DNA from: Carboxylicivirga marina
Lineage (GTDB): Bacteria > Bacteroidota > Bacteroidia > Bacteroidales > Marinilabiliaceae
Direction: 5' to 3'
Assembly: GCF_016612505.1 (NCBI RefSeq)
Contig: NZ_JAENRR010000033.1
Span: 1-53,657 of the forward strand
Length of the DNA: 53,657 bases
How positions within the stretch are numbered: the first letter of the stretch is position 1; each line of letters opens with the position of its first letter. The position numbers and the translations under genes were made by a program. Shown here in pieces: positions 1,186 through 11,947 of the stretch. The notes beneath the pieces were generated by a model. That model was not told where the DNA came from. It saw only the letters and a program-made list of their open reading frames with translations, and ran no database searches.

Positions 1186-1902
1186 TTAGCTTTTATTCTC
1201 GATAACCTGACCGTTCCAATGCGGTACATTATCACAAATACCCGATCGAAAGCAGTATTCTAAATCTTTCAGATAGCCTTTTGTCTTTAGCACATTGTAA
1301 TGATAACCCTTGCTTGCTGTTTCATGAAGCTTTGTGGCATTGATTTCGTAAAGCGATTCTATCGTCAAAGCAAAATCAGTCAGCTCCAATTCCACAGATT
1401 GTTCTTGAAGTAAATGGATAATACGCCCCGCACACAAAGCATCTTCAAGTGTGTACAAGCCATTATTACCCGAGCACACCAACACCACATCCTTATGATT
1501 CTTTATTTCATTAACAATTGCTTTATCATTGGCAAAGGAAGCAATCAAAAGCTCTTTTGCCGAAAGCGAATTATTAATGGCCAAAGTACCGTTTGTTGTC
1601 GTCATCACTAAAAGCTTACCCGCAATTACTTCCTTGTTGTACGACAATGGTGAATTACCATAATCAAAGCCTTCAATGGGTTCTGCATGACGCTCACCAC
1701 CCAATATGACATCCGTACCGTTTTCTTTTTTAATATCAAAAGCGTCATCGGGCGAAAGAACAGGAATAATACCTTTAGCGCCATTATTCAATGCCGACAC
1801 CATCACAGAGGTGGCACGCAAGACATCAATTACCACAACTGTTTTTCCTTTTACAAGGTCGGCCGATACCTGTTGCGCGGTTCCTATTACTTCTAGCTTC
1901 AT
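1186..1902 (-). CDS. comB: 2-phosphosulfolactate phosphatase family protein (ComB-like)
   Basis: A 238-residue protein of the ComB family. In methanogens ComB hydrolyses 2-phospho-3-sulfolactate to sulfolactate in coenzyme M synthesis. The family's conserved blocks are visible: DVLRAT at residues 26-31, EPIEGFDYGNSP at 74-85 and TTTNGT at 101-106. The length is normal. The gene lies 9 bases after the MATE transporter gene and is probably the last gene of the same minus-strand unit. Bacteroidetes do not make coenzyme M, so the true substrate here is unknown. A role in sulfonate metabolism, for example in making or recycling sulfonolipid precursors, is only an inference. The fold assignment is firm and the exact reaction is not. 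Confidence 0.85.
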   Translation of the reverse strand: MKLEVIGTAQQVSADLVKGKTVVVIDVLRATSVMVSALNNGAKGIIPVLSPDDAFDIKKENGTDVILGGERHAEPIEGFDYGNSPLSYNKEVIAGKLLVMTTTNGTLAINNSLSAKELLIASFANDKAIVNEIKNHKDVVLVCSGNNGLYTLEDALCAGRIIHLLQEQSVELELTDFALTIESLYEINATKLHETASKGYHYNVLKTKGYLKDLEYCFRSGICDNVPHWNGQVIENKS

Positions 1903-1911
1903 AAATTACTT

Positions 1912-3249
1912 TTATAATCCGTAACGTTTCTTGTACAGCATCCGAAATCGCCATAACAAAAATACACCTGCCGACGCTAAGCCGGATAAGTAGCCTACCC
2001 AGATACCAATGGGGCCAGCCTCAAAAACAAATGCCGTTAAATAACCAATGGGCAATGAAATTAGCCAGTAAGCAATTCCTGCACCAATGACCGGCATCAC
2101 CACATCTTCAAGTCCTCTTAATATACCTAGTGTTACCACCTGAATACCGTCAAAAATCTGGAATATACCTGCTACCAGCATTAAACCGGCAGCGGTTTTA
2201 ATCACTTCCACCTCATCGACAAACAACGATGGTAAAAAGTAACGCATCGACACGAATAAGAAACTCATAATGGTCATAAACATTACTACCAAATGAAGTG
2301 AAGCAAAGGCACTGTGCTTTAGTGATGGGTAATCTTTCTTGCCCCTGAAAATACTAACTTTTATAGTTGTTGCCGATGCCAGACCTGAAGACATCATATA
2401 GGTTAAACTGGCCATGCTCAACACTATCTGATGTGCGGCAAGGCTAACAGCATTAATCCATCCCATCATGATACTTCCCAGGCTAAATGCAAATACCTCA
2501 ATAACCGATTGCAAGCCTATAGGAAGGCCAAGTTTCCAGATGCGTTTAAATGCCGAAGCAGAGAACTGACTGACATGAATGCCTCGGTATTCTTTAAATA
2601 AGCGTACCCGATACGACACAAATACAAACATAATGGCCATCACTATGCGCGATGCTAATGTGCCAATACCTGCACCAACCACACCCATAGCCGGCACTCC
2701 AAAATGCCCGTAAATAAACACATAATTCAATGCGACATTTAACAAATTACCTCCAATCGTGATAATCATGGCTATTTTGGTATTGCTCAATCCTTCGGCA
2801 AATTGCTTGTAATTATTAAATACCTGCAATGGCAATATGGATAAAATCAATAAGATATAGTAAGGAATAGCCTCTTCGACAACACCGGCCTCCTGCCCCA
2901 TAAAAGGCATGGCCAAAGCAATGGCACCAGCCACCAGTGATAACAAAACACCAATAATCACATTAGCATACATCCCTTGCTGAAACCAATAGGCACATTC
3001 ATCTTTGTTTTTGGCACCATAGGCTTTCCCTACCAAAGGCGTTAAGGCAAAAGAGATGCCCATACCCAAAACCAGTACATTAATAAAAATGCTGTTGGCA
3101 AATGAGGCCGCTGCCAGCGGAATAGTCCCTACCTGACCAACCATAACCGTGTCGGCAACATTAACCAGCATTTGTCCGGCTTGTGCCAGCACCACTGGTG
3201 TTGCCAACTTTATATTTGGCCAATAATGTGATGAATAATGATTTTGCAT
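1912..3249 (-). CDS. MATE family multidrug/metabolite efflux transporter
   Basis: A 445-residue inner-membrane protein of the MATE (NorM-like) family, which exports cationic drugs or metabolites in exchange for Na+ or H+. It shows about twelve hydrophobic helices. The first holds the typical PVVLAQAGQMLVNVADTVMV pattern, and the start of the second half (LGLPIGLQSVIEVFAFSLG) mirrors it, as expected for two six-helix bundles. The length is typical. It lies between the peptide exporter gene (68-base gap) and the comB-like gene (9-base gap) on the same strand, so it may be co-transcribed with the peptide-export operon. The substrate cannot be read from the sequence. Confidence 0.92.
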   Translation of the reverse strand: MQNHYSSHYWPNIKLATPVVLAQAGQMLVNVADTVMVGQVGTIPLAAASFANSIFINVLVLGMGISFALTPLVGKAYGAKNKDECAYWFQQGMYANVIIGVLLSLVAGAIALAMPFMGQEAGVVEEAIPYYILLILSILPLQVFNNYKQFAEGLSNTKIAMIITIGGNLLNVALNYVFIYGHFGVPAMGVVGAGIGTLASRIVMAIMFVFVSYRVRLFKEYRGIHVSQFSASAFKRIWKLGLPIGLQSVIEVFAFSLGSIMMGWINAVSLAAHQIVLSMASLTYMMSSGLASATTIKVSIFRGKKDYPSLKHSAFASLHLVVMFMTIMSFLFVSMRYFLPSLFVDEVEVIKTAAGLMLVAGIFQIFDGIQVVTLGILRGLEDVVMPVIGAGIAYWLISLPIGYLTAFVFEAGPIGIWVGYLSGLASAGVFLLWRFRMLYKKRYGL

Positions 3250-3317
3250 TAGCTTGCAGCACTTATTAAGCCCACAAAAGTAAACAAAGAAAAGATGAAT
3301 TAGGTATGCTTGAGTGT

Positions 3318-5468
3318 TTATAAATGATTGTGTCTGACCATTTCATAAAACCGGCCTTTCTTATCTTTCCTAAGCTCTTTAACAGTGCCCGACTGAATAA
3401 CCTGGCCTCTCTCAAAGACAAAAACTTCATCAGCAATATCAATCACACTCATTCGATGGGCTACCATAATAATGGTTCTCCCCTCATCCTTTAGTTGAAG
3501 TATGATATCCTTCACGATCGACTCTGAACGATCATCTAAAAAGGAAGTCGCTTCATCGAATATATAAATTTGCGGATTCAGATACAGTACACGTGCAATA
3601 GCCAGGCGTTGTCGCTGTCCACCTGAAAGCTGAATGGCATTTTCGCCCAGCCAGGTATAAAGTCCTTCAGGTAATTGCTCAATGGTGTCGTTGAGTTGCA
3701 GCTGTTTAATAATCTGATTGATTCTTCTGATGTCAGGATTGGCATCTCCCAGAGCAATATTATCAATAACATTGCCGGCAAAAAGCTCTATGTTTTGTGG
3801 CACAATACCAACGGTCTTACGAAGATCATTGAGGTTTATATACTTGATTTCATTACCGCCAATCGTCAATTGCCCTGCACCCACCGGATACAAACCCTGA
3901 ATTAAAGCACCGATAGTTGACTTACCACAGCCACTATCACCCAATAAAACAGAAATGGTATTATTCTTTATCAAAAGGTCAAACCCCTCAAATAAATCCT
4001 GCTCAAGGGTGTACGAAAAAGTGACATTTTTAAACACCACATCACCAACATCATCTTTATCAAAGGCCATGGTTTGTTGTGTTTCCTGTTCTCCTTTCAT
4101 CTCAAGAAGTTCAAAAAGGCGATCCATAGCAATTAGCGCCCCATGCCAACTTTTATTGATGGCAGCTAGTCGGGCAACAGGTCCCGTAAAAAAGGCCGAT
4201 ATGGCAAAAAATGACATCAGCTCACCCGATGAAAGTTCGGTGTCAATAACCAGTAATGCGCCTGACCACAAGATAGTCAGCGTTAATATCCGATTGATAA
4301 ATGACATACCCGAGTTGGAAAATATATCCAACTTACCCGATTTATATACATGCCCCAAAACCTTTACCAGACGGTTATCTACACCATTGGCAAAATGCTC
4401 TTCGGCACCCATTTGTTTCACTGTTTTGATGGCCCGCAACGATTCTACCAACTGTATTTCCAGCTCAGCCGTTTCCTCCATTTTACTTCGTTCGAGCCGT
4501 TTGTTAATGGTATTGGTAATAAAAAGCAGTAGGAGATAAACAGGGATAACAGCATAAGCTAACAAAGCCAATTTCCAGCTAAATACCATCATTACCAAAA
4601 AGGCGATGGTGATAATCAACACATCAACCACCGATTCAACAGCTATTTGGTTAATAAAATTCCGAATCTTCACAGCATCATTCACGCGTGAAATCAGTTC
4701 GCCAATACGCATGCTGTCGTAAAACTTCTGAGGTAATTGTATCAAATGCCTGAAATAGCCTGAAATTAAACTGATATCGATATTTTGACTCACCCGTAGT
4801 ACAAACCAGGACTGCAGAACGCCAATCAACAGCTGAACCACAAACACAAGCATCATTATTACTCCAAGAAGGTGCAAGAGGTTGCGGTTATGGCCCACCA
4901 ACACAAAATCAGTCAACTTTTGAATATAAAATGCAGTAGATAGGCCAAGCACCGAAAATGCCAATGCACCAAAAGCCGATTGTATAAAAACCGCTTTGTG
5001 AGGTTTGATAACATTCCATAGGCGTTTGACATTCGAAATAGAATGATTGCCAGGCGTAAAGTCAGCAGCCGGAATCATCAGTATCATCACGCCTGTCCAT
5101 TTCTTAGAAAAATCGTCAATCGACATGGCCACCATTTTGCCGAAGGCCGGATCCATCACTCTTACCGATTTTTTTCCCAGCTTATATATCACCACAAAAT
5201 GGTGTGTACCACCAGCTAGTTTTAAATGAGCAATGGCCGGCGTTGGAATATCCTTTAAATCACTGCTATCAATTTCGATGCCTTTTACATCAAAACCCAG
5301 ACATTCGGCGGCCTTAATCAAACCATAAGCACTAGTGCCACCTTTGTGTGTTCCTGCCTCTTGTCGGATGGTCCACAAAGGTATACGCAGCTTGTAATAC
5401 CTTGCTACGGAAGCCAGGCAAGCAGCACCACAATCACTCGCATCATATTGTTGAATGGCTAGTTTCAT
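3318..5468 (-). CDS. Peptidase-containing ABC exporter (C39, double-glycine leader type)
   Basis: A 716-residue PCAT-type inner-membrane transporter that cuts a double-glycine leader from a peptide and exports the mature part. The N-terminal C39 protease is intact: Cys13 in DCGAAC, His90 in THHFVV and Asp106 in MDPAFG. A six-helix transmembrane domain follows (about residues 155-440). The C-terminal ATPase has Walker A with GCGKST (Lys516), signature LSGGQRQR (Ser615), Walker B IFDEAT (Glu639) and the H-loop AHR. The gene lies 8 bases after the HlyD-type adaptor gene, so the pair forms the inner-membrane and periplasmic parts of a type I machine; an outer-membrane TolC partner is not in the window. 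The likely substrate gene is at 7196-7333. Confidence 0.95.
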   Translation of the reverse strand: MKLAIQQYDASDCGAACLASVARYYKLRIPLWTIRQEAGTHKGGTSAYGLIKAAECLGFDVKGIEIDSSDLKDIPTPAIAHLKLAGGTHHFVVIYKLGKKSVRVMDPAFGKMVAMSIDDFSKKWTGVMILMIPAADFTPGNHSISNVKRLWNVIKPHKAVFIQSAFGALAFSVLGLSTAFYIQKLTDFVLVGHNRNLLHLLGVIMMLVFVVQLLIGVLQSWFVLRVSQNIDISLISGYFRHLIQLPQKFYDSMRIGELISRVNDAVKIRNFINQIAVESVVDVLIITIAFLVMMVFSWKLALLAYAVIPVYLLLLFITNTINKRLERSKMEETAELEIQLVESLRAIKTVKQMGAEEHFANGVDNRLVKVLGHVYKSGKLDIFSNSGMSFINRILTLTILWSGALLVIDTELSSGELMSFFAISAFFTGPVARLAAINKSWHGALIAMDRLFELLEMKGEQETQQTMAFDKDDVGDVVFKNVTFSYTLEQDLFEGFDLLIKNNTISVLLGDSGCGKSTIGALIQGLYPVGAGQLTIGGNEIKYINLNDLRKTVGIVPQNIELFAGNVIDNIALGDANPDIRRINQIIKQLQLNDTIEQLPEGLYTWLGENAIQLSGGQRQRLAIARVLYLNPQIYIFDEATSFLDDRSESIVKDIILQLKDEGRTIIMVAHRMSVIDIADEVFVFERGQVIQSGTVKELRKDKKGRFYEMVRHNHL

Positions 5469-5476
5469 GCCCTTAA

Positions 5477-6640
5477 TTATTTGACAGGATTCGTTTCATT
5501 AATAATCTTTGGATTTAGCCAATCATCAACCGTATCAAATAATAGCTGATACAAGGAACGTTTGCTTACAATAAAACGAGCAGTCAGGCTCATTCCTTTT
5601 TTCATGTGCCCCACCAGTCCATTGCTCAGTTGCAATGATTTTTGTTTTAAGCGGCATCGAATTAAATATCTATACTCACTTTTAACCAGGTTTACATCAT
5701 GAGCTACTTCTACAACCTCAGCATCAAGCATTCCCCATTGGTTGTAATCGTAGGTGTCAACCTGCAACCTAACTGGCATACCTTTATGTATAAAACCAAT
5801 ATCAGATGGAGAAATATAACACTCTGCTATCAAATCTTCCTGAGGAGATAAACTGGCTATTGCTTCGTTTTCATTTAAAAAATGCCCTATTGCAATACCC
5901 TTAAAGTCAATAACACTTCCATCAAAAGGGGCGGTAATAACATATTGAGTCTGTACTTGCTTTAAATTTTCTACCTGCCCTTCCAGTTCACGGTTAGACG
6001 TAATGTAGTTCTTACTATCAGCTTCCCATTTTGATTGAGTGGCTGTTTTATACAACTTTAGTTCATCTCTTGCTTCATCTAGTTTAAAAGAGTCTTCCTG
6101 AAATTCTGATAGTGGAACAACTCCATCGTTATACAAATCAGCAGTTCGTTTAAAATCGACCAGTAGTTTATTGACTTTTCGTTCGTAACGTTTAATGGAG
6201 CTCAAATAATCATCATTCTCTTTGATATAGAGCGGTGTAATCAACTTCATATTAATATCACGCCCCAATAACACATCAAGGTCATGCCTATAATCGTTTT
6301 GAAGTTTAAGTTGCGAACGAATGAGATTTATCTCATTATTGATACCGGCCTGATGAAGAACAATAAGGGTATCTGCTTTCCTTACAAGTTGATTTTCTTT
6401 GATATGCACCCCTGTTACCTTGGCCGTAATGGGCGAAGAAATAGTAATCATACGATTAAGAGAAGTGACCATACCACGACTTTGTACCGTAACATCTACC
6501 TGAATAAAGGGCAGAGAAACAATTACACTAAAGAAAAAGATAAGAATTACCCAATACAATCCATATCCGCGATAGTTAATAGCAGAATATTGGTGATATT
6601 TTGAATTTCTCTGATGTTGTTTGGATGTATCGACAGGCAT
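5477..6640 (-). CDS. HlyD-family periplasmic adaptor for peptide export
   Basis: A 387-residue membrane fusion protein. It has a short cytoplasmic N-terminus, one membrane anchor at about residues 28-46, a barrel/lipoyl half (VQSRGMVTSLN ... SPITAKVTGVHIKENQLV), a coiled-coil hairpin in the middle, the second lipoyl half (YVITAPFDGSVIDFKG) and a C-terminal beta barrel. Such adaptors link an inner-membrane ABC exporter to an outer-membrane TolC channel. It lies 8 bases upstream of the C39 ABC exporter gene, its obvious partner. The start chosen gives the expected short cytoplasmic tail before the anchor. Confidence 0.92.
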   Translation of the reverse strand: MPVDTSKQHQRNSKYHQYSAINYRGYGLYWVILIFFFSVIVSLPFIQVDVTVQSRGMVTSLNRMITISSPITAKVTGVHIKENQLVRKADTLIVLHQAGINNEINLIRSQLKLQNDYRHDLDVLLGRDINMKLITPLYIKENDDYLSSIKRYERKVNKLLVDFKRTADLYNDGVVPLSEFQEDSFKLDEARDELKLYKTATQSKWEADSKNYITSNRELEGQVENLKQVQTQYVITAPFDGSVIDFKGIAIGHFLNENEAIASLSPQEDLIAECYISPSDIGFIHKGMPVRLQVDTYDYNQWGMLDAEVVEVAHDVNLVKSEYRYLIRCRLKQKSLQLSNGLVGHMKKGMSLTARFIVSKRSLYQLLFDTVDDWLNPKIINETNPVK

Positions 6641-6720
6641 ATCAGGTTAAGCTACATCCCGAAATTAATGTTTTTTATTGAAGATGTGGTCTTTTGCCAC
6701 CTTTATGCTTTCATGCCGCA

Positions 6721-6981
6721 TCATTTTGGCACTTCAATCTTTTCATACTCAACCCAACGAATACCATCTTTAAAATACCCCTCAAATTCATACTCGAAAC
6801 TATTTAATTCTTTTGAGAAGTGTATAATGGCTCCTAAATGCGTCATCATATCCAGGTAAAAGTAAAGCATACGTACGGACATGCAGAGGCGACCGGCCAT
6901 CTCTATTGGCGAACCGGTTTCCTGGCGTCTGATTTCTTTATCAATCAGCGCTATTGTTTTGCGTACTTCGTGCTGCGGCAA
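6721..6981 (-). CDS. Small winged-helix DNA-binding protein, TTG start
   Basis: An 86-residue protein whose centre (SPIEMAGRLCMSVRMLYFY and the following LDMMTHLGA) fits the helix-turn-helix and wing of the HTH_11/DeoR-type fold. No effector domain is present. The start codon is TTG; an AAGGAG ribosome binding site (6990-6995 on the minus strand) lies about 8 bases upstream and decides this start, since no in-frame ATG precedes the conserved part. It lies between the precursor peptide gene and the exporter genes on the same strand. That position suggests a local regulator of peptide production or export, but this is inference. The fold call is moderate because the protein is so short. Confidence 0.72.
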   Translation of the reverse strand: MPQHEVRKTIALIDKEIRRQETGSPIEMAGRLCMSVRMLYFYLDMMTHLGAIIHFSKELNSFEYEFEGYFKDGIRWVEYEKIEVPK

Positions 6982-7018
6982 ATCTTTCTCTCCTTTTTCA
7001 AAACAAAAAATTGAGGAT

Positions 7019-7082
7019 AAAGAAGGTGAGGGGTACTAGGTGAGAATCGGGAATCTATAAGGGAAACCGCCCCACCTTCTTT
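7019..7082 (-). promoter_or_regulatory. Inverted repeat between peptide gene and export genes, possible attenuator
   Basis: A perfect 10-base dyad, AAAGAAGGTG on one arm (7019-7028) and CACCTTCTTT on the other (7073-7082), encloses 44 bases. Next to the stem, runs of G and C (7030-7033 and 7070-7073) could extend it. On the transcribed minus strand the hairpin falls after the small ORF stop (7087) and before the regulator's ribosome binding site. It could act as a partial terminator or RNA-stability element so that peptide mRNA exceeds exporter mRNA. There is no long T tract, so a full terminator is unlikely. Confidence 0.45.
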
Positions 7083-7086
7083 GTTT

Positions 7087-7242
7087 CTACAAACGGTCTG
7101 CGTTCAGACCTCTACTAATCGGGATAGTCATATTAATATTGTTAATGTCTTTCATCGGCTCATCCAAAACCCATTGATAACAGAACATCATATTTTTATA
7201 ATTTAGTTTTACTGGTTTCGTCCATATCATTGTTTGATCCAT
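7087..7242 (-). CDS. Small ORF overlapping the leader-peptide gene in another frame
   Basis: A 51-codon frame that starts with ATG inside the leader-peptide gene, just after its GG codons, and overlaps it by 47 bases in the +1 frame. GGAGG lies immediately before the ATG; two further in-frame ATGs, at 7230 and 7191, are alternatives. The product is rich in W, Y, M and N, for example IWTKPVKLNYKN and YQWVLDEPMKDINN, with one Cys, and looks more like protein than like random translation. I do not recognise it. It may be a second peptide made by coupled translation, or the true C-terminal core of the precursor if a frameshift or sequence error joins the two frames. Confidence 0.4.
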   Translation of the reverse strand: MDQTMIWTKPVKLNYKNMMFCYQWVLDEPMKDINNINMTIPISRGLNADRL

Positions 7243-7333
7243 CTCCTCCAACAACCTTTTTTAAAAAAGCCGTGTCTTTTGCTTTAAACTTTTTAAATTG
7301 CTCCTGCTTTTTTGCTTTAACTAAAGTCTTCAT
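7196..7333 (-). CDS. Double-glycine leader peptide precursor, likely substrate of the C39 exporter
   Basis: A 45-codon gene, too short for ordinary gene calling. The N-terminal 30 residues form a charged, Lys-rich leader with hydrophobic spacing (starting MKTLVKAKKQ) and end in FLKKVVGG, a textbook double-glycine site for C39 peptidases. The predicted mature part is only about 15 residues, polar and acidic (DGSNNDMDETS), with no Cys, Trp or Tyr. It is the first gene on the minus strand, upstream of the regulator, adaptor and C39 exporter genes. Known parallels are Bacteroidetes GG-leader peptides exported by PCATs. A signalling peptide is as plausible as a bacteriocin, given the short core. 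The site and the context are seen; the function is inferred. Confidence 0.75.
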   Translation of the reverse strand: MKTLVKAKKQEQFKKFKAKDTAFLKKVVGGDGSNNDMDETSKTKL

Positions 7334-7417
7334 GATACTATCGTATTAATGGTTTCTATAGGTTAATTGCAGAAATCGAGAATCGTAACACCTTTTTTAA
7401 AACTTTTTTTAAAAAAA

Positions 7418-10400
7418 ATGAAGAGCACACTACTTATAATACTGATATTGTGCCTATTGAGCATCGTGAAAAAAAGTTATTCGCAAGAAATTAATGATAA
7501 CATAATATATTTTTCAAAGCATTATTCGAGTGAGGATTATAAGAAAGCTGCTGAAATTGGATCGGAGATATTGAATTCAGACAAACTGAGGCCTCAAGAT
7601 AACGAACGCTTTCGTTTGCTTTATAAAACGATACGTTCGTATGCATATTCTGATAATATGAGGGGTGCGTACACCTTTCTGACCAACATTCCTCAGGTAA
7701 ATGAAGATAAGTTATTTAATGAATACATTAAATTATACATTGCCGTAACAGCCATTAATAATAAAAGAATGAAGGAAGCCAAAAGAATTTATGAGAGCTT
7801 CCTGTCGGAAAACAATATGGAATTTCTAACCGATTCAGTTAAGGCAAAAATTTATCACAATCTATCGGTCATAGTTGGTTTTGAAGGAAACGAGGCTAAA
7901 AGGTTACAGTATTTGACGCAGTCGTTTGAGTTGGAAAAACAAACACTACTCAACAATTCGAATTTTGAGAATTACAACCTCTCGGTTGAAGTTTATACAA
8001 GTGAACTTTATAAACGATATCGCCAATATGAAAAGGCTTATAGAGTCTTTCAGGAAGCATTGTCATTACCTTTCAATAAAGAAGTCAATGTATATAACCA
8101 TGCTTTCTTTCAAAATTACATCGAGCTTCTCCTGACCATGGGGATGGAAGAAAAAGCTCAAGTCCATATAGAAAATCTTTCGCAATTTTATCAGAAAAAG
8201 GGTAAGGTCTTTCTGGTCGAATATTGCAGTTTATTGAATTCTATTGCCAATCATTATTTCTTACAAAACAATTATACAGAAGCCATATTATTATCCTCCA
8301 AAATCCTATCTATCAGCTCAGTTACACCTATTTTTAAGAGCAGCAGAACAAATGCCAACGATTGTTTGGCCAGGTGCTATTTTAGCTTACAACAGTACGA
8401 TAAAATGCGCTATTATTTGCTAAAAGACATCGAAGAGTGTAAACAATTAGATAAAGTATCACTTAGTTCAGCTTATGTGGTGATGGCACATTATCTCTCA
8501 AAAATATATGATGATAACAATGCCTACACTTATATCGATTCAGCTTTGAATCTGCGTTACAATGAACTAAGGCTTCCATTAGACAGAATAAATGAGAACA
8601 TTACAGCACTTGCCTACTTTGAACTTGGCCAATACTCTCAAAGCCTGTATCACCTTGAGAATGTCAACAAAGTCATGGTTAAAAACGGAAATTACACTTC
8701 CTATCTTTTCTGGGATAATCAATACGAAAGAGCACTTTGTTACAATCATTTAAAACAATATCGCGAAGCCTACCAACTATTAAAAAAAGCCAACTCTGAG
8801 ATGCTGAGAAAATATCCGCATCTCTACGACAAAGCATCTACGATTCAAAACAGCAGGTTTGGTTCATTGTATCGAAACATTAATATTGCACTGGCTGAAA
8901 ATCTGTACAAACAATATTTAGATGGCCTGGATCTGGAAATTCTCAAGAAAGCCATGGACCATGTAGAAGAAGCTGGCAAGAGTATTGAAATATTAAGGAA
9001 TAAACAAAACTACGATCGAGACCGATTGGTAACAGGTGAAATGTATTACGATTTCACATTGCAAAGTTCAAAAGTGTCAATGGCATTGTATAAAGCCACC
9101 CAAAAAGAATGGTATCTGCACAAAACATTTGAATACATTCAAAAAGGGAAGTCGTATGCATTAACGCAAGGTATTAATGAGAAGAATTATAAATTAAACT
9201 CTGGAGTACCACTCACAACCATTAATCTTTTAAATCAACTAAAAGACCAGTACGATCGATATGAAGACCGCTATAACGAGGCATTTTTTGGCGAACAGGG
9301 AGACAGCAATTTAATAACATCGTTAAATGATAAAATGAGCCAAAATATGGCTAAAATTGATAGTGTAAACAGAGCTATCGAAAGAGAGTTCCCAAGCTAT
9401 CAGGAAGAAAAAGCGCGCGCCCCATTTTTAAGTATCAAAGAAATACAGAATCGACTTAGTGACGAACAAGTCATTGTTGATTATTACCAAACTGAAGAGG
9501 AAATATTTCGATTCACAATCTCAAAACAAGATACTCGTTGTGACATTATTCCAACAAATACCAATTTTAAGAACAATCTTCAGCTTGTGGTCGACGAAAT
9601 TTCAACTCCTTTTGTTGGACAGTATTCAATGGAGCACATGCAGAGATTTGCACATGCTTCCCATTCGTTATATCTGCTTCTTTTAAAAGACATAGAATTA
9701 TATATTTCAGATAAAGAACTAATTATTGTACCACACTCTGAATTATCATACCTCCCGTTTGAAGTTCTTCTTACCGAAGATTGTGCGGATAAGAAACCAA
9801 AGTTCAGCGCGTATCCTTGGTTAATTAAAAGTCAGGTTGTTAGCTATTCATACAATACGGCTTTATTGAATCAATCTTCAAATAACACCATTGAATTCAA
9901 TAACATCCTGGCTTTCGCTCCTGAATATTACGGTTCATCTGGCACCCAATCAATTGATTTAAATAATTCAAGGTATCTGGATTCGCTATTAGCACCTTTG
10001 ACAGGTGCACAAAATGAAATTTCGGCCATTGATAAACTGTTTAGAACTTCAAAATACAAAGGCAAAGAAGCTAATAAGGATAATTTTATTGCTTCAATGC
10101 AAAATAACGACATCCTTCATCTGGCAATGCACTCAGTAAACGATGAAGCACTGCCATTTAATTCTCAACTCATATTTGCTTCAAAAGACAGTTCTTCCGG
10201 GAGCTTTAAAGCGGGTGAAATATATAACTATAATATTAAGTCGCCATTGGCAGTATTGAGCTCATGTAGCACCGGGCGAGGACAGAAACAAAAAGGGGAA
10301 GGCTTGTTAAGTATTGCTCGTGCCTTTACCTATTCCGGCGTTGAGTCGCAAGTAATGACGCTATGGCCTGTTAATGATTTAAGTGGGGCCAATATTGTCA

Positions 10401-10648
10401 ATCGTTTTTACCAACACCTTAAAGAGGAAATACCTAAAAACATCGCTTTACAGCAGAGTAAACTGAATTATTTGGCTACTGCCGACGGCGTAAAGTCTCA
10501 CCCCTATTATTGGGCAAATTATGTTTTGGCAGGCAATACCAGCCCTGTAAAACAACAAATGCCAAAAGGCATTTTCGTGTACCTTCTGGCATTTGCAATT
10601 TTATCAGTTATTCTCTTATTTATTTACGATAAAAGAAAAGTTCGTTAA
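7418..10648 (+). CDS. TPR-CHAT protein with signal peptide and C-terminal membrane anchor
   Basis: A 1076-residue protein. An N-terminal signal segment (MKSTLLIILILCLLS ... SYSQ) precedes a long array of TPR-like helices (about residues 30-640). A C-terminal CHAT domain, a caspase-like fold, carries the dyad His905 (HLAMHS) and Cys950 (SSCSTG), followed by GEGLLSIARAF and LWPVND, all typical. One membrane helix (about 1050-1068, FVYLLAFAILSVILLFIY) ends the protein with a KRKVR tail inside. The CHAT domain should therefore face the periplasm. The frame is open from a TTG at 7367, but the ATG at 7418 begins the signal peptide and is preferred. The stop overlaps the stop of the convergent membrane TPR gene. 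CHAT proteins are predicted proteases or signalling proteins; the substrate is unknown. Confidence 0.88.
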   Translation: MKSTLLIILILCLLSIVKKSYSQEINDNIIYFSKHYSSEDYKKAAEIGSEILNSDKLRPQDNERFRLLYKTIRSYAYSDNMRGAYTFLTNIPQVNEDKLFNEYIKLYIAVTAINNKRMKEAKRIYESFLSENNMEFLTDSVKAKIYHNLSVIVGFEGNEAKRLQYLTQSFELEKQTLLNNSNFENYNLSVEVYTSELYKRYRQYEKAYRVFQEALSLPFNKEVNVYNHAFFQNYIELLLTMGMEEKAQVHIENLSQFYQKKGKVFLVEYCSLLNSIANHYFLQNNYTEAILLSSKILSISSVTPIFKSSRTNANDCLARCYFSLQQYDKMRYYLLKDIEECKQLDKVSLSSAYVVMAHYLSKIYDDNNAYTYIDSALNLRYNELRLPLDRINENITALAYFELGQYSQSLYHLENVNKVMVKNGNYTSYLFWDNQYERALCYNHLKQYREAYQLLKKANSEMLRKYPHLYDKASTIQNSRFGSLYRNINIALAENLYKQYLDGLDLEILKKAMDHVEEAGKSIEILRNKQNYDRDRLVTGEMYYDFTLQSSKVSMALYKATQKEWYLHKTFEYIQKGKSYALTQGINEKNYKLNSGVPLTTINLLNQLKDQYDRYEDRYNEAFFGEQGDSNLITSLNDKMSQNMAKIDSVNRAIEREFPSYQEEKARAPFLSIKEIQNRLSDEQVIVDYYQTEEEIFRFTISKQDTRCDIIPTNTNFKNNLQLVVDEISTPFVGQYSMEHMQRFAHASHSLYLLLLKDIELYISDKELIIVPHSELSYLPFEVLLTEDCADKKPKFSAYPWLIKSQVVSYSYNTALLNQSSNNTIEFNNILAFAPEYYGSSGTQSIDLNNSRYLDSLLAPLTGAQNEISAIDKLFRTSKYKGKEANKDNFIASMQNNDILHLAMHSVNDEALPFNSQLIFASKDSSSGSFKAGEIYNYNIKSPLAVLSSCSTGRGQKQKGEGLLSIARAFTYSGVESQVMTLWPVNDLSGANIVNRFYQHLKEEIPKNIALQQSKLNYLATADGVKSHPYYWANYVLAGNTSPVKQQMPKGIFVYLLAFAILSVILLFIYDKRKVR

Positions 10649-11382
10649 AAATCGATCTTATCAAGCAATTCTTTCGCTTTTGTTGAGTAGCTATTACCGC
10701 TAGTTTGAAGTTGCGTTAACAACAACTCGGCCGGTTCATATTCTTCTAGTTTTATATGACACAACGATAGGTACCATTTAATTTGTTCCTCGTAGAAAAT
10801 TGCTATTTCCTGAGTTGATTGCAATTGACTCTTGGCCAATTCTAAATTTCCCATTTCCATGTAGCACAGCCCTGTAAAGAATCCTGCCAACTCTTCATTT
10901 TCATGGCTTAACTCTTTAAAAGAAACTATTGCCGCATCTATGTCACCTGATTGATAACTCTCAAGAGCTCGATTAAACAACGAAGACTCCTCGCCTCCAC
11001 GAACTGTCATATCGGTTCCATATGGAGAATAATATTCAACAAATGCCTGACCGCCTGTATAACTAGCATCGCGAAGCAAGCCTAGATAGCTTCCTAATCC
11101 GATAACAACAATTACTGAAGCGGCAGCCAACCAATAATTTATTTTGAAAGAGTTTCGTTTCTCATCCTGTTCTTCCAGAAACTCTTGACCTATTTCGTTC
11201 AACTGCTTCTTAAAATCGTCAAAGCCATCGCCCTGATTGGCAATTGAAAATAACACCTCTTGTTGAAGTTTCATATCTTCATTTACACCGGAATCAGACG
11301 CCATCTCCAACTTTAAATCTTCACGTTGTTCTGAAGATAATTCATTTGTAAAAAACTGCAGTATCTTTTTATTATAATCCAT
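10645..11382 (-). CDS. Membrane TPR protein, likely anti-sigma or accessory partner of the sigma factor
   Basis: A 245-residue protein with a cytoplasmic N-terminal region (residues 1-80), one membrane helix (about 83-103, YWLAAASVIVVIGLGSYLGLL) and a periplasmic part with TPR-like repeats (ALESYQSGDIDAAIVSFKEL, FFTGLCYMEMGNLELAKSQL). The gene overlaps the end of the sigma factor gene by 11 bases, which suggests translational coupling. The layout, cytoplasmic domain, single helix and periplasmic sensor, is that of an anti-sigma factor, although no zinc-binding anti-sigma motif is visible. It converges with the TPR-CHAT gene. The product may respond to periplasmic signals, perhaps together with the CHAT protein. 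Its role is inferred from gene order and topology. Confidence 0.7.
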   Translation of the reverse strand: MDYNKKILQFFTNELSSEQREDLKLEMASDSGVNEDMKLQQEVLFSIANQGDGFDDFKKQLNEIGQEFLEEQDEKRNSFKINYWLAAASVIVVIGLGSYLGLLRDASYTGGQAFVEYYSPYGTDMTVRGGEESSLFNRALESYQSGDIDAAIVSFKELSHENEELAGFFTGLCYMEMGNLELAKSQLQSTQEIAIFYEEQIKWYLSLCHIKLEEYEPAELLLTQLQTSGNSYSTKAKELLDKIDF

Positions 11383-11947
11383 ACTTCAACTCTTTATATT
11401 CAGGATCAGCCTTAATCATCTCCAATAACTTCTTGTTACACATTGATTTTCTATTCTTTGTGTACGCTATAGAGCTAAAAGCTAATTCCGTTGTAATGTG
11501 TTCATTTGTAAAACCTATTGAAACCAAACGCAATACATCCTGACATACTTTTTGTATTTTGTTATAATATTTCAAGTATAACTTTCTGCGCTTTTCGAAT
11601 AACTCTTTTTCGTGAATTTCGCTCTCAAGTTCCGGAATCTCATCATTCAATACCTGATATGTTGGTGCCACCTGCTTTTTGCGAAGCTCATAAAGCCACA
11701 AATTTTTACAGACTGACACAAAATAGGTAGTGAAGGTACTTACCAGTATCGGTTTCTCTTTCTTGGAGTATATGGCTATAAAGGCATCCTGCATAATTTG
11801 CATGGCATCTTCATTCGAACCATTATTGTCTATAACAATTGTTCGAACCTGACTCCACACCAATTGCATAATGTACTTTATCAGCTTACTGTCTCGCGAG
11901 TAAACAGCCTCCAATAATTCATTATCTGAATATTTCCTTCTTAACAT
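11372..11947 (-). CDS. ECF-type sigma-70 family RNA polymerase sigma factor
   Basis: A 191-residue sigma factor with region 2 (SNEDAMQIMQDAFIAIYSKK, then FTTYFVSVCKNLWLYELRK) and a region 4 helix-turn-helix (CQDVLRLVSIGFTNEHITTEL ... RKSMCNKKLLEMI). Regions 1 and 3 are missing, as in the extracytoplasmic-function group. It is the first gene of a two-gene unit with the membrane TPR protein, which probably restrains it. A palindrome CACTAAAATAGTG (11964-11976) lies 16 bases upstream of the start and could be an autoregulatory site. The family call is firm; the regulon is unknown, with the neighbouring TPR-CHAT gene an obvious candidate target. Confidence 0.88.
   Translation of the reverse strand: MLRRKYSDNELLEAVYSRDSKLIKYIMQLVWSQVRTIVIDNNGSNEDAMQIMQDAFIAIYSKKEKPILVSTFTTYFVSVCKNLWLYELRKKQVAPTYQVLNDEIPELESEIHEKELFEKRRKLYLKYYNKIQKVCQDVLRLVSIGFTNEHITTELAFSSIAYTKNRKSMCNKKLLEMIKADPEYKELKYGL

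Follow-up and report, generated by a model that had tools for sequence, protein, structure and literature searches.

The window, a 53,657-nt stretch of Carboxylicivirga marina DNA forming a single contig in a genome of 5.65 Mb, contains a real 45-codon gene for a double-glycine (GG) leader peptide precursor (positions 7196..7333, minus strand), and the precursor is very probably trimmed and exported as a C39 substrate by the neighbouring C39 peptidase-containing ABC exporter (PCAT). Taken as a whole, the locus seems best explained, with somewhat better than even confidence, by a short exported peptide that is likely a lineage-specific signal and that would be made from an RNA-tuned operon. PCAT export of GG peptides is a known kind of system. 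The new elements are a covarying RNA structure outside Rfam, a bipartite motif with one copy ahead of a second C39 system, a Bacteroidales family of small, often GG-tailed wHTH proteins, and a divergent CHAT-TPR gene that accompanies all 16 peptide loci.

The precursor, its leader and its core

The gene translates as a leader of residues 1-30, MKTLVKAKKQEQFKKFKAKDTAFLKKVVGG, which ends in KKVVGG, followed by a core of residues 31-45, DGSNNDMDETSKTKL, with cleavage predicted after Gly30. Translation, conservation and codon pattern all agree with the sequence-only reading that had proposed this minus-strand frame as a gene, and conservation and codon pattern rule out a chance open reading frame. 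That reading had also described the core correctly as about 15 residues, acidic and without Cys, Trp or Tyr; it has 15 residues and a net charge of -2. Five of the 16 remaining cores in the alignment (G004, G002, G001 and both G022 copies) do contain Tyr or Trp, and Cys was seen in one further G032 copy, outside the 17 aligned rows, whose core begins GCNG. Across relatives the core is 13-20 aa long and its charge ranges from +1 to -7 (of 17 rows, one is positive and two are 0). Its first residue is D or E in 17/17 rows, and K-x-[KRQ]-hydrophobic closes it in 15/17, the exceptions being G007 and G032.

The leader is the conserved part, with a net charge of +6 to +9 across aligned rows. All 17 rows have GG, V or I at -4 and F at -15; position -7 is L in 16 and M in one, position -12 is K in 16 and position -8 is F in 15. 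The precursor thus combines the features of a double-glycine precursor, namely the GG, hydrophobic residues at -4 and -7 and a short open reading frame beside a PCAT. The window peptide had no match in NCBIfam, and none of TIGR04149, TIGR01847 and ComC, used as curated GG families, matched it above cut-off; ComC scored 10.1 bits against a cut-off of 20.4, and the G032 peptide scored 15.5 bits against 15.7 for TIGR01847. The leader does not follow the L(-12) and E(-8) of the ComA-type consensus, with no Glu at -8 in the 17 leader rows, so that Lys at -12 and the lack of this Glu set the leader apart from the ComA consensus as quoted in the available part of PMC6363468. According to the same portion of that source, the C39 protease LahT needs a hydrophobic residue at -4 and Leu at -7; the leader agrees with LahT at -4 and -7 and not at -12.

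Distribution and selection

A tblastn search (E<=1) of 71 genomes of the family, comprising Carboxylicivirga and relatives, gave matches in 20 genomes, 16 of them at the orthologous place. The latter are 14 genomes of the genus (the window's included, and every genus genome in this search), G022, which has two near-identical peptides, and G032, which has two whole copies spanning two overlapping contig ends. Matches in G023 (with an internal stop), G019, G079 and G060, at E 0.05-0.68, and a second match in G012 (E 0.81) were judged to be chance and were dropped. A peptide HMM of 17 rows found only the window genome among 393 genomes of the order, a sample with only five other family genomes.

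The synonymous-site comparison suggested with the original reading was carried out, and its codon patterns show selection on the peptide frame. The leader is under purifying selection, with pN/pS of 0.25 in clade 1 and 0.42 in clade 2 (0.16 and 0.35 for its inner part), and the core gives 0.68 and 0.71, respectively. In 103 of 105 species pairs no other part of the locus is as poorly conserved as the core, gaps being counted for every gene. Identity between the sisters G011 and G009 is 97% for the leader, 96% for PCAT, 94% for HlyD, 92% for CHAT and 53% for the core, and between G013 and G010 it is 97%, 86%, 73%, 64% and 20% in the same order, in both cases with gaps scored as differences for the core only and with a core that is short and uncertainly aligned. 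A conserved leader joined to a fast-changing core fits a secreted signal or a competition peptide.

Exporter genes and neighbouring genes

The same-strand genes downstream of the peptide encode wHTH, HlyD and PCAT proteins, as had been claimed, and the full order after the peptide is RNA element, wHTH, HlyD, PCAT, MATE and 2-phosphosulfolactate phosphatase. The HlyD-type adaptor (5477..6640, minus strand; PF13437 above cut-off) adjoins the peptide in 15/16 loci. The PCAT (3318..5468, minus strand), also in 15/16 loci, has Peptidase_C39 with its Cys-His-Asp triad, ABC membrane and ATPase domains, all three Pfam domains scoring above cut-off (127 bits against 22 for Peptidase_C39); against TIGR01193 it scored 456 bits, below the cut-off of 524. 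The triad residues Cys13, His90 and Asp106 are intact, as first described, in all 15 aligned orthologues including the window's. Among solved structures, its nearest sequence is the ABC-type bacteriocin transporter 4ry2, which we take to be PCAT1, with ComA and HlyB lower.

The exporter search covered 60 genomes, including 36 of the family's 71 (the other 35 lay outside it), and found an orthologous exporter, at 60-79% identity to the window's, in 15 genomes with the window's included. All 15 have a GG open reading frame at the same place, and an exporter kept without one was never seen, which supports the proposal that this peptide is the cognate C39 precursor. Weaker matches (38-50% identity) are other C39 proteins; second C39 systems were examined closely in three genomes, the window's, G011 and G015. 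G032 keeps the peptide, RNA and wHTH with no exporter after the wHTH, and has one other, different C39 protein elsewhere, which argues against a strict coupling of peptide and exporter. G072 has a wHTH-MATE pair without the peptide and without any C39 protein, which counts for the reading of peptide export through C39.

The MATE transporter (1912..3249, minus strand; 15/16 loci) had been put forward as a possible system member, and it is probably only a neighbour, because it stands without peptide or exporter in G072 and G026. The gene taken for ComB encodes instead the 2-phosphosulfolactate phosphatase, with no copy found adjacent to the locus in G012. An anti-phage defence role was considered and set aside, as the PADLOC families gave no match for five of six proteins and only two ABC-like models for the PCAT.

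A structured RNA between peptide and wHTH

A conserved RNA structure lies at 6985..7137 (minus strand) and is present in 18 copies in 16 genomes. It contains a hairpin, P1 (about 7095-7111), and a long stem, P2 (arms at about 7066-7082 and 7019-7034), both of which RNAalifold recovered from 14 sequences with both sides changed in 7/18 pairs. In the alignment of all 18 copies, which was fitted to the model and therefore leans towards it, 95.4% of cells are paired and both sides have changed in 11/18 pairs. Its covariation score is 0.424; shuffles gave 0.208 and slid versions gave 0.051-0.137. The structure matches no Rfam family, the five matches over 6500-7600 at up to E 10 all falling far under gathering scores. 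In G007 three tandem copies stand between peptide and wHTH (L086:9336-9970, plus strand), and in G032 a second motif copy (L099:17279-17307, minus strand) and a 19-codon open reading frame resembling a truncated leader precede the RNA.

The RNA family search of the 71 genomes (E<=1) returned 18, the 16 peptide genomes and two weak matches, in G017 (E 0.04) and G027 (E 0.73), that were dropped; the 3.1 kb covered at these loci contains none of peptide, wHTH and exporter. A further copy, in G026, was spotted by eye between a CHAT relative and a MATE gene (L251:3241-3362, plus strand, with a T-run after the RNA) and was then matched with filters off at 33.4 bits (E 0.0002 at the locus alone, 0.01 over 26 sources). 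In this genome (72% complete) the motif is degenerate, the RNA locus has no peptide, wHTH or exporter, and the minimum-energy fold of the RNA forms P2 with P1 absent. The RNA is thus not tied to the peptide; it accompanies the promoter region on the CHAT side, together with the operon that follows, and not strictly the peptide, and this favours a cis-acting leader. On these comparisons we regard the RNA as probably cis-regulatory. Across the order it was found in one of 393 sampled genomes, the window's; strict filters make this kind of search insensitive, as the G026 copy missed in the family search shows. A search beside other motif sites, covering 26 sources of which 20 are site regions, gave a match at the G026 locus alone.

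Other accounts of this interval were considered. A scan for an intrinsic terminator between peptide and wHTH found none, and as it allowed loops of 3-8 only, P2 could not have been reported; by eye there is no conserved T-run directly after P2, while the G026 copy has one. A dispersed repeat was rejected, the window genome having one full RNA copy and six other DNA matches of 16-29 nt, as was a coding role, the open frames there with GG or similar having no conserved start. Pairing of a loop with the tail that would mask the wHTH start is strong in 5/5 clade-2 loci (p<=0.015). The window shows no such pairing (p 0.61), and in clade 1 it is not significant for the loop; masking is therefore not claimed for the window genome. 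The controls were simple letter shuffles.

A promoter-like motif and its candidate regulon

The bipartite, promoter-like motif GTGTTACG-N12-TGCAATTAAC lies at 7362..7391 (minus strand), 28 nt before the peptide start, and aligns without gaps in 16 loci, with G005 deviating at the 5' edge. Allowing up to 3 mismatches, five genomes contain 62 sites, compared with 23 for a reversed control. With no more than one mismatch allowed, the window genome has ten sites, and one of them is directly upstream of its second C39 system (C129:104821-104850); an exact copy precedes the second C39 system of G011. The nine copies beyond the peptide's own are at C44:58432, C132:29027, C77:45616 and 81431, C125:3940, C127:13016, C129:104821, C135:47509 and C148:39097 of the window genome (G000). 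Behind them lie GG-related genes, DUF6261 genes and further uncharacterised ones, which may form a candidate regulon.

In 17 of 20 motif-site regions a same-strand open reading frame of at least 40 aa starts within 170 nt. Genes behind the sites include two for GG-tailed wHTH proteins, one for a LytTR protein and, further on, one for a DUF6261 protein. Several families recur there without a Pfam family above cut-off (L184, L185, L178, L181), examples being a 224-aa family in L178 and a 115-117-aa family in L179 and L185. The motif resembles a promoter read by a dedicated sigma factor, or a regulator site, that would also serve other GG-peptide systems. No other site with up to 3 mismatches occurs in contig C133, so the motif is not at the sigma gene described below.

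The wHTH protein and its GG-tailed relatives

The small wHTH protein (6721..6981, minus strand) begins with TTG, as it does in 9/9 clade 1 loci, and is homologous to the wHTH proteins of the second systems (hhalign probability 99%). The latter end in a C-terminal GG and short tail in 6/6 cases from three genomes (L100:7332-7640 and 11476-11784; L101:5274-5618 and 9852-10199; L103:6048-6359 and 10035-10367), and it is possible that these regulators are themselves C39 substrates. The window wHTH itself has no GG tail; in the window the GG peptide is encoded by a gene of its own. Solved structures gave no sequence relative of the wHTH at E<=1.

Members of this wHTH family (E<=1e-6) are present in 57 of the 393 sampled genomes of the order. 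Among the 30 best loci, 18 (two of them seeds) have a GG no more than 60 residues past the wing, in a search whose model was built from GG-tailed members and so favours GG-tailed loci, and some of these GG may not be leaders. The GG tails of the family are putative C39 substrates.

The divergent CHAT-TPR gene and the sigma pair

Across the motif, and divergent from the peptide in 16/16 loci, lies the gene for a CHAT-TPR protein (7418..10648, plus strand), a candidate receptor or protease with a hydrophobic N-terminus and a C-terminal TM-like segment. Relatives at E<=1e-60 occur in 17 of the 71 family genomes; at E<=1e-150 they occur in exactly the 16 peptide genomes, the additional relative being that of G026 at 27% identity. 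The His/Cys dyad is present in 15/15 aligned proteins, and solved structures gave no sequence relative at E<=0.001. Beyond it are genes for a TPR protein with one TM-like segment (10645..11382, minus strand), called a putative anti-sigma because it adjoins the sigma gene, and for an ECF-like sigma factor (11372..11947, minus strand; Sigma70_r2 above cut-off). This pair is found in 12/16 loci and was not found in four within the stretches covered.

Once MATE distance is taken into account, the distances of core and CHAT correlate (15 species: r 0.23, p 0.021; clade 1: r 0.51, p 0.010), a weak signal from 16 uncorrected tests. In the 15 species the PCAT (p 0.023) and the leader (p 0.042) correlate with the core too, and the sigma and TPR proteins do not.

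Proposed mechanism and alternative explanations

In the mechanism that we propose, the precursor would be read from its own promoter-like motif and the neighbouring PCAT would receive its cationic leader at the C39 domain. The PCAT would then cut after Gly30, and the core of 13-20 aa would be pumped out via HlyD and a channel in the outer membrane whose gene lies elsewhere. Outside the cell the core would most likely act as a lineage-specific signal and not as a pore-forming bacteriocin, and the RNA would most likely serve as a cis-acting leader or attenuator that sets the dose of wHTH and exporter relative to peptide.

A signal is somewhat favoured over a toxin. The sequence-only reading had the same preference, which size, charge and lack of Cys favour. 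No receptor or two-component system was recognised beside the peptide in the conserved cassette. Fast evolution of the core fits bacteriocins as well, and a narrow-spectrum bacteriocin that inhibits close relatives, its core changing in an arms race, is a plausible if rather doubtful alternative. It would account for the core being the part that changes fastest and for the several copies in G022 and G032, and Bacteroidota PCAT loci are known, from the accessible text of PMC6671954, to export toxins such as bacteroidetocins. Against it, the core is just 13-20 aa with a charge of +1 to -7 and no Cys in the 17 aligned rows, no dedicated immunity gene was recognised in the conserved cassette, and an orthologue is found in all 14 genus genomes searched, unlike a patchy bacteriocin locus. 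The peptide might also act inside the cell, its cationic helix binding, for example, RNA or the wHTH and its GG being incidental or structural. The very basic leader is indeed the conserved part, and G032 keeps peptide, RNA and wHTH without an adjacent exporter; however, the invariant GG and hydrophobic spacing, the exporter adjoining the peptide in 15/16 loci, and G072, which has the wHTH and lacks both the peptide and any C39 protein, make this very unlikely.

A third alternative extends the signal to a receptor, with the membrane-anchored CHAT-TPR protein sensing the core and cutting the TPR anti-sigma so as to free the ECF sigma factor. By analogy this would have a precedent in Csx29-Csx30-CASP-sigma, as described in the available portion of PMC10028731, and it would fit the CHAT orthologues in exactly the peptide genomes, their constant divergent position, the intact dyad and the core-CHAT correlation. 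That correlation is matched by PCAT and leader and not by sigma and TPR in the uncorrected tests, the sigma pair was not found in four of the 16 loci, the G026 CHAT relative stands without a peptide, and the motif is missing at the sigma gene; we consider this circuit improbable. A circuit of new design, in which a PCAT-exported GG peptide, a CHAT sensor cutting an anti-sigma, an RNA-gated operon and wHTH kin with a C39-cleavable tail would be combined, such that export modifies the regulator in sister systems, is distinctly improbable.

If the preferred reading of an exported signal is true, a compact peptide communication or competition system has spread through one Bacteroidota genus, and its defined precursor, exporter, promoter-like motif and candidate receptor could be tested in culturable species. 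The GG-tailed wHTH family suggests a wider, possibly undescribed link between peptide export and gene control, and the RNA could represent a cis-regulatory class of its own that is new.

Comparison with known systems

A search of the literature for Carboxylicivirga together with double-glycine found nothing, and the consulted portions of PMC6671954 and PMC10352776 present Bacteroidota GG peptides as bacteriocins or RiPPs. The locus shares with ComAB-CSP, BlpAB, PCAT1 and LahT the C39 triad, the ABC domains and a GG leader with hydrophobic residues at -4 and -7. It differs from them in Lys at -12, Phe at -8 and the lack of a curated GG-family match above cut-off, and in having a CHAT gene, an RNA and a motif with no two-component receptor recognised in the cassette. 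Bacteroidetocins are likewise from Bacteroidota and likewise have a GG leader and a C39 ABC transporter, but the available part of PMC6671954 describes Cys-containing, class IIa-like cores with genes for a TM protein and mostly a thiol oxidoreductase. Here the core is short and Cys-free and none of those genes was recognised, which places the peptide outside that group as far as that part of the source defines it.

Bacteroidales RiPP clusters, in the accessible portion of PMC10352776, have the same combination of PCAT and GG-type precursors, some with HTH or TPR genes; these were identified by mining for RiPP clusters and include radical SAM enzymes, and no radical SAM-type enzyme gene was recognised here in genes 1186-11947. 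The Csx29/Csx30/CASP-sigma system shares a CHAT-TPR protein near an ECF-like sigma factor and a putative inhibitor, in the text available from PMC10028731. Compared with Csx29 as described there, the present protein is apparently membrane-anchored and extracytoplasmic and stands beside a peptide export cassette, with no CRISPR link seen. The likeness to Csx29, judged from that same text, may serve as a lead, a resemblance rather than membership.
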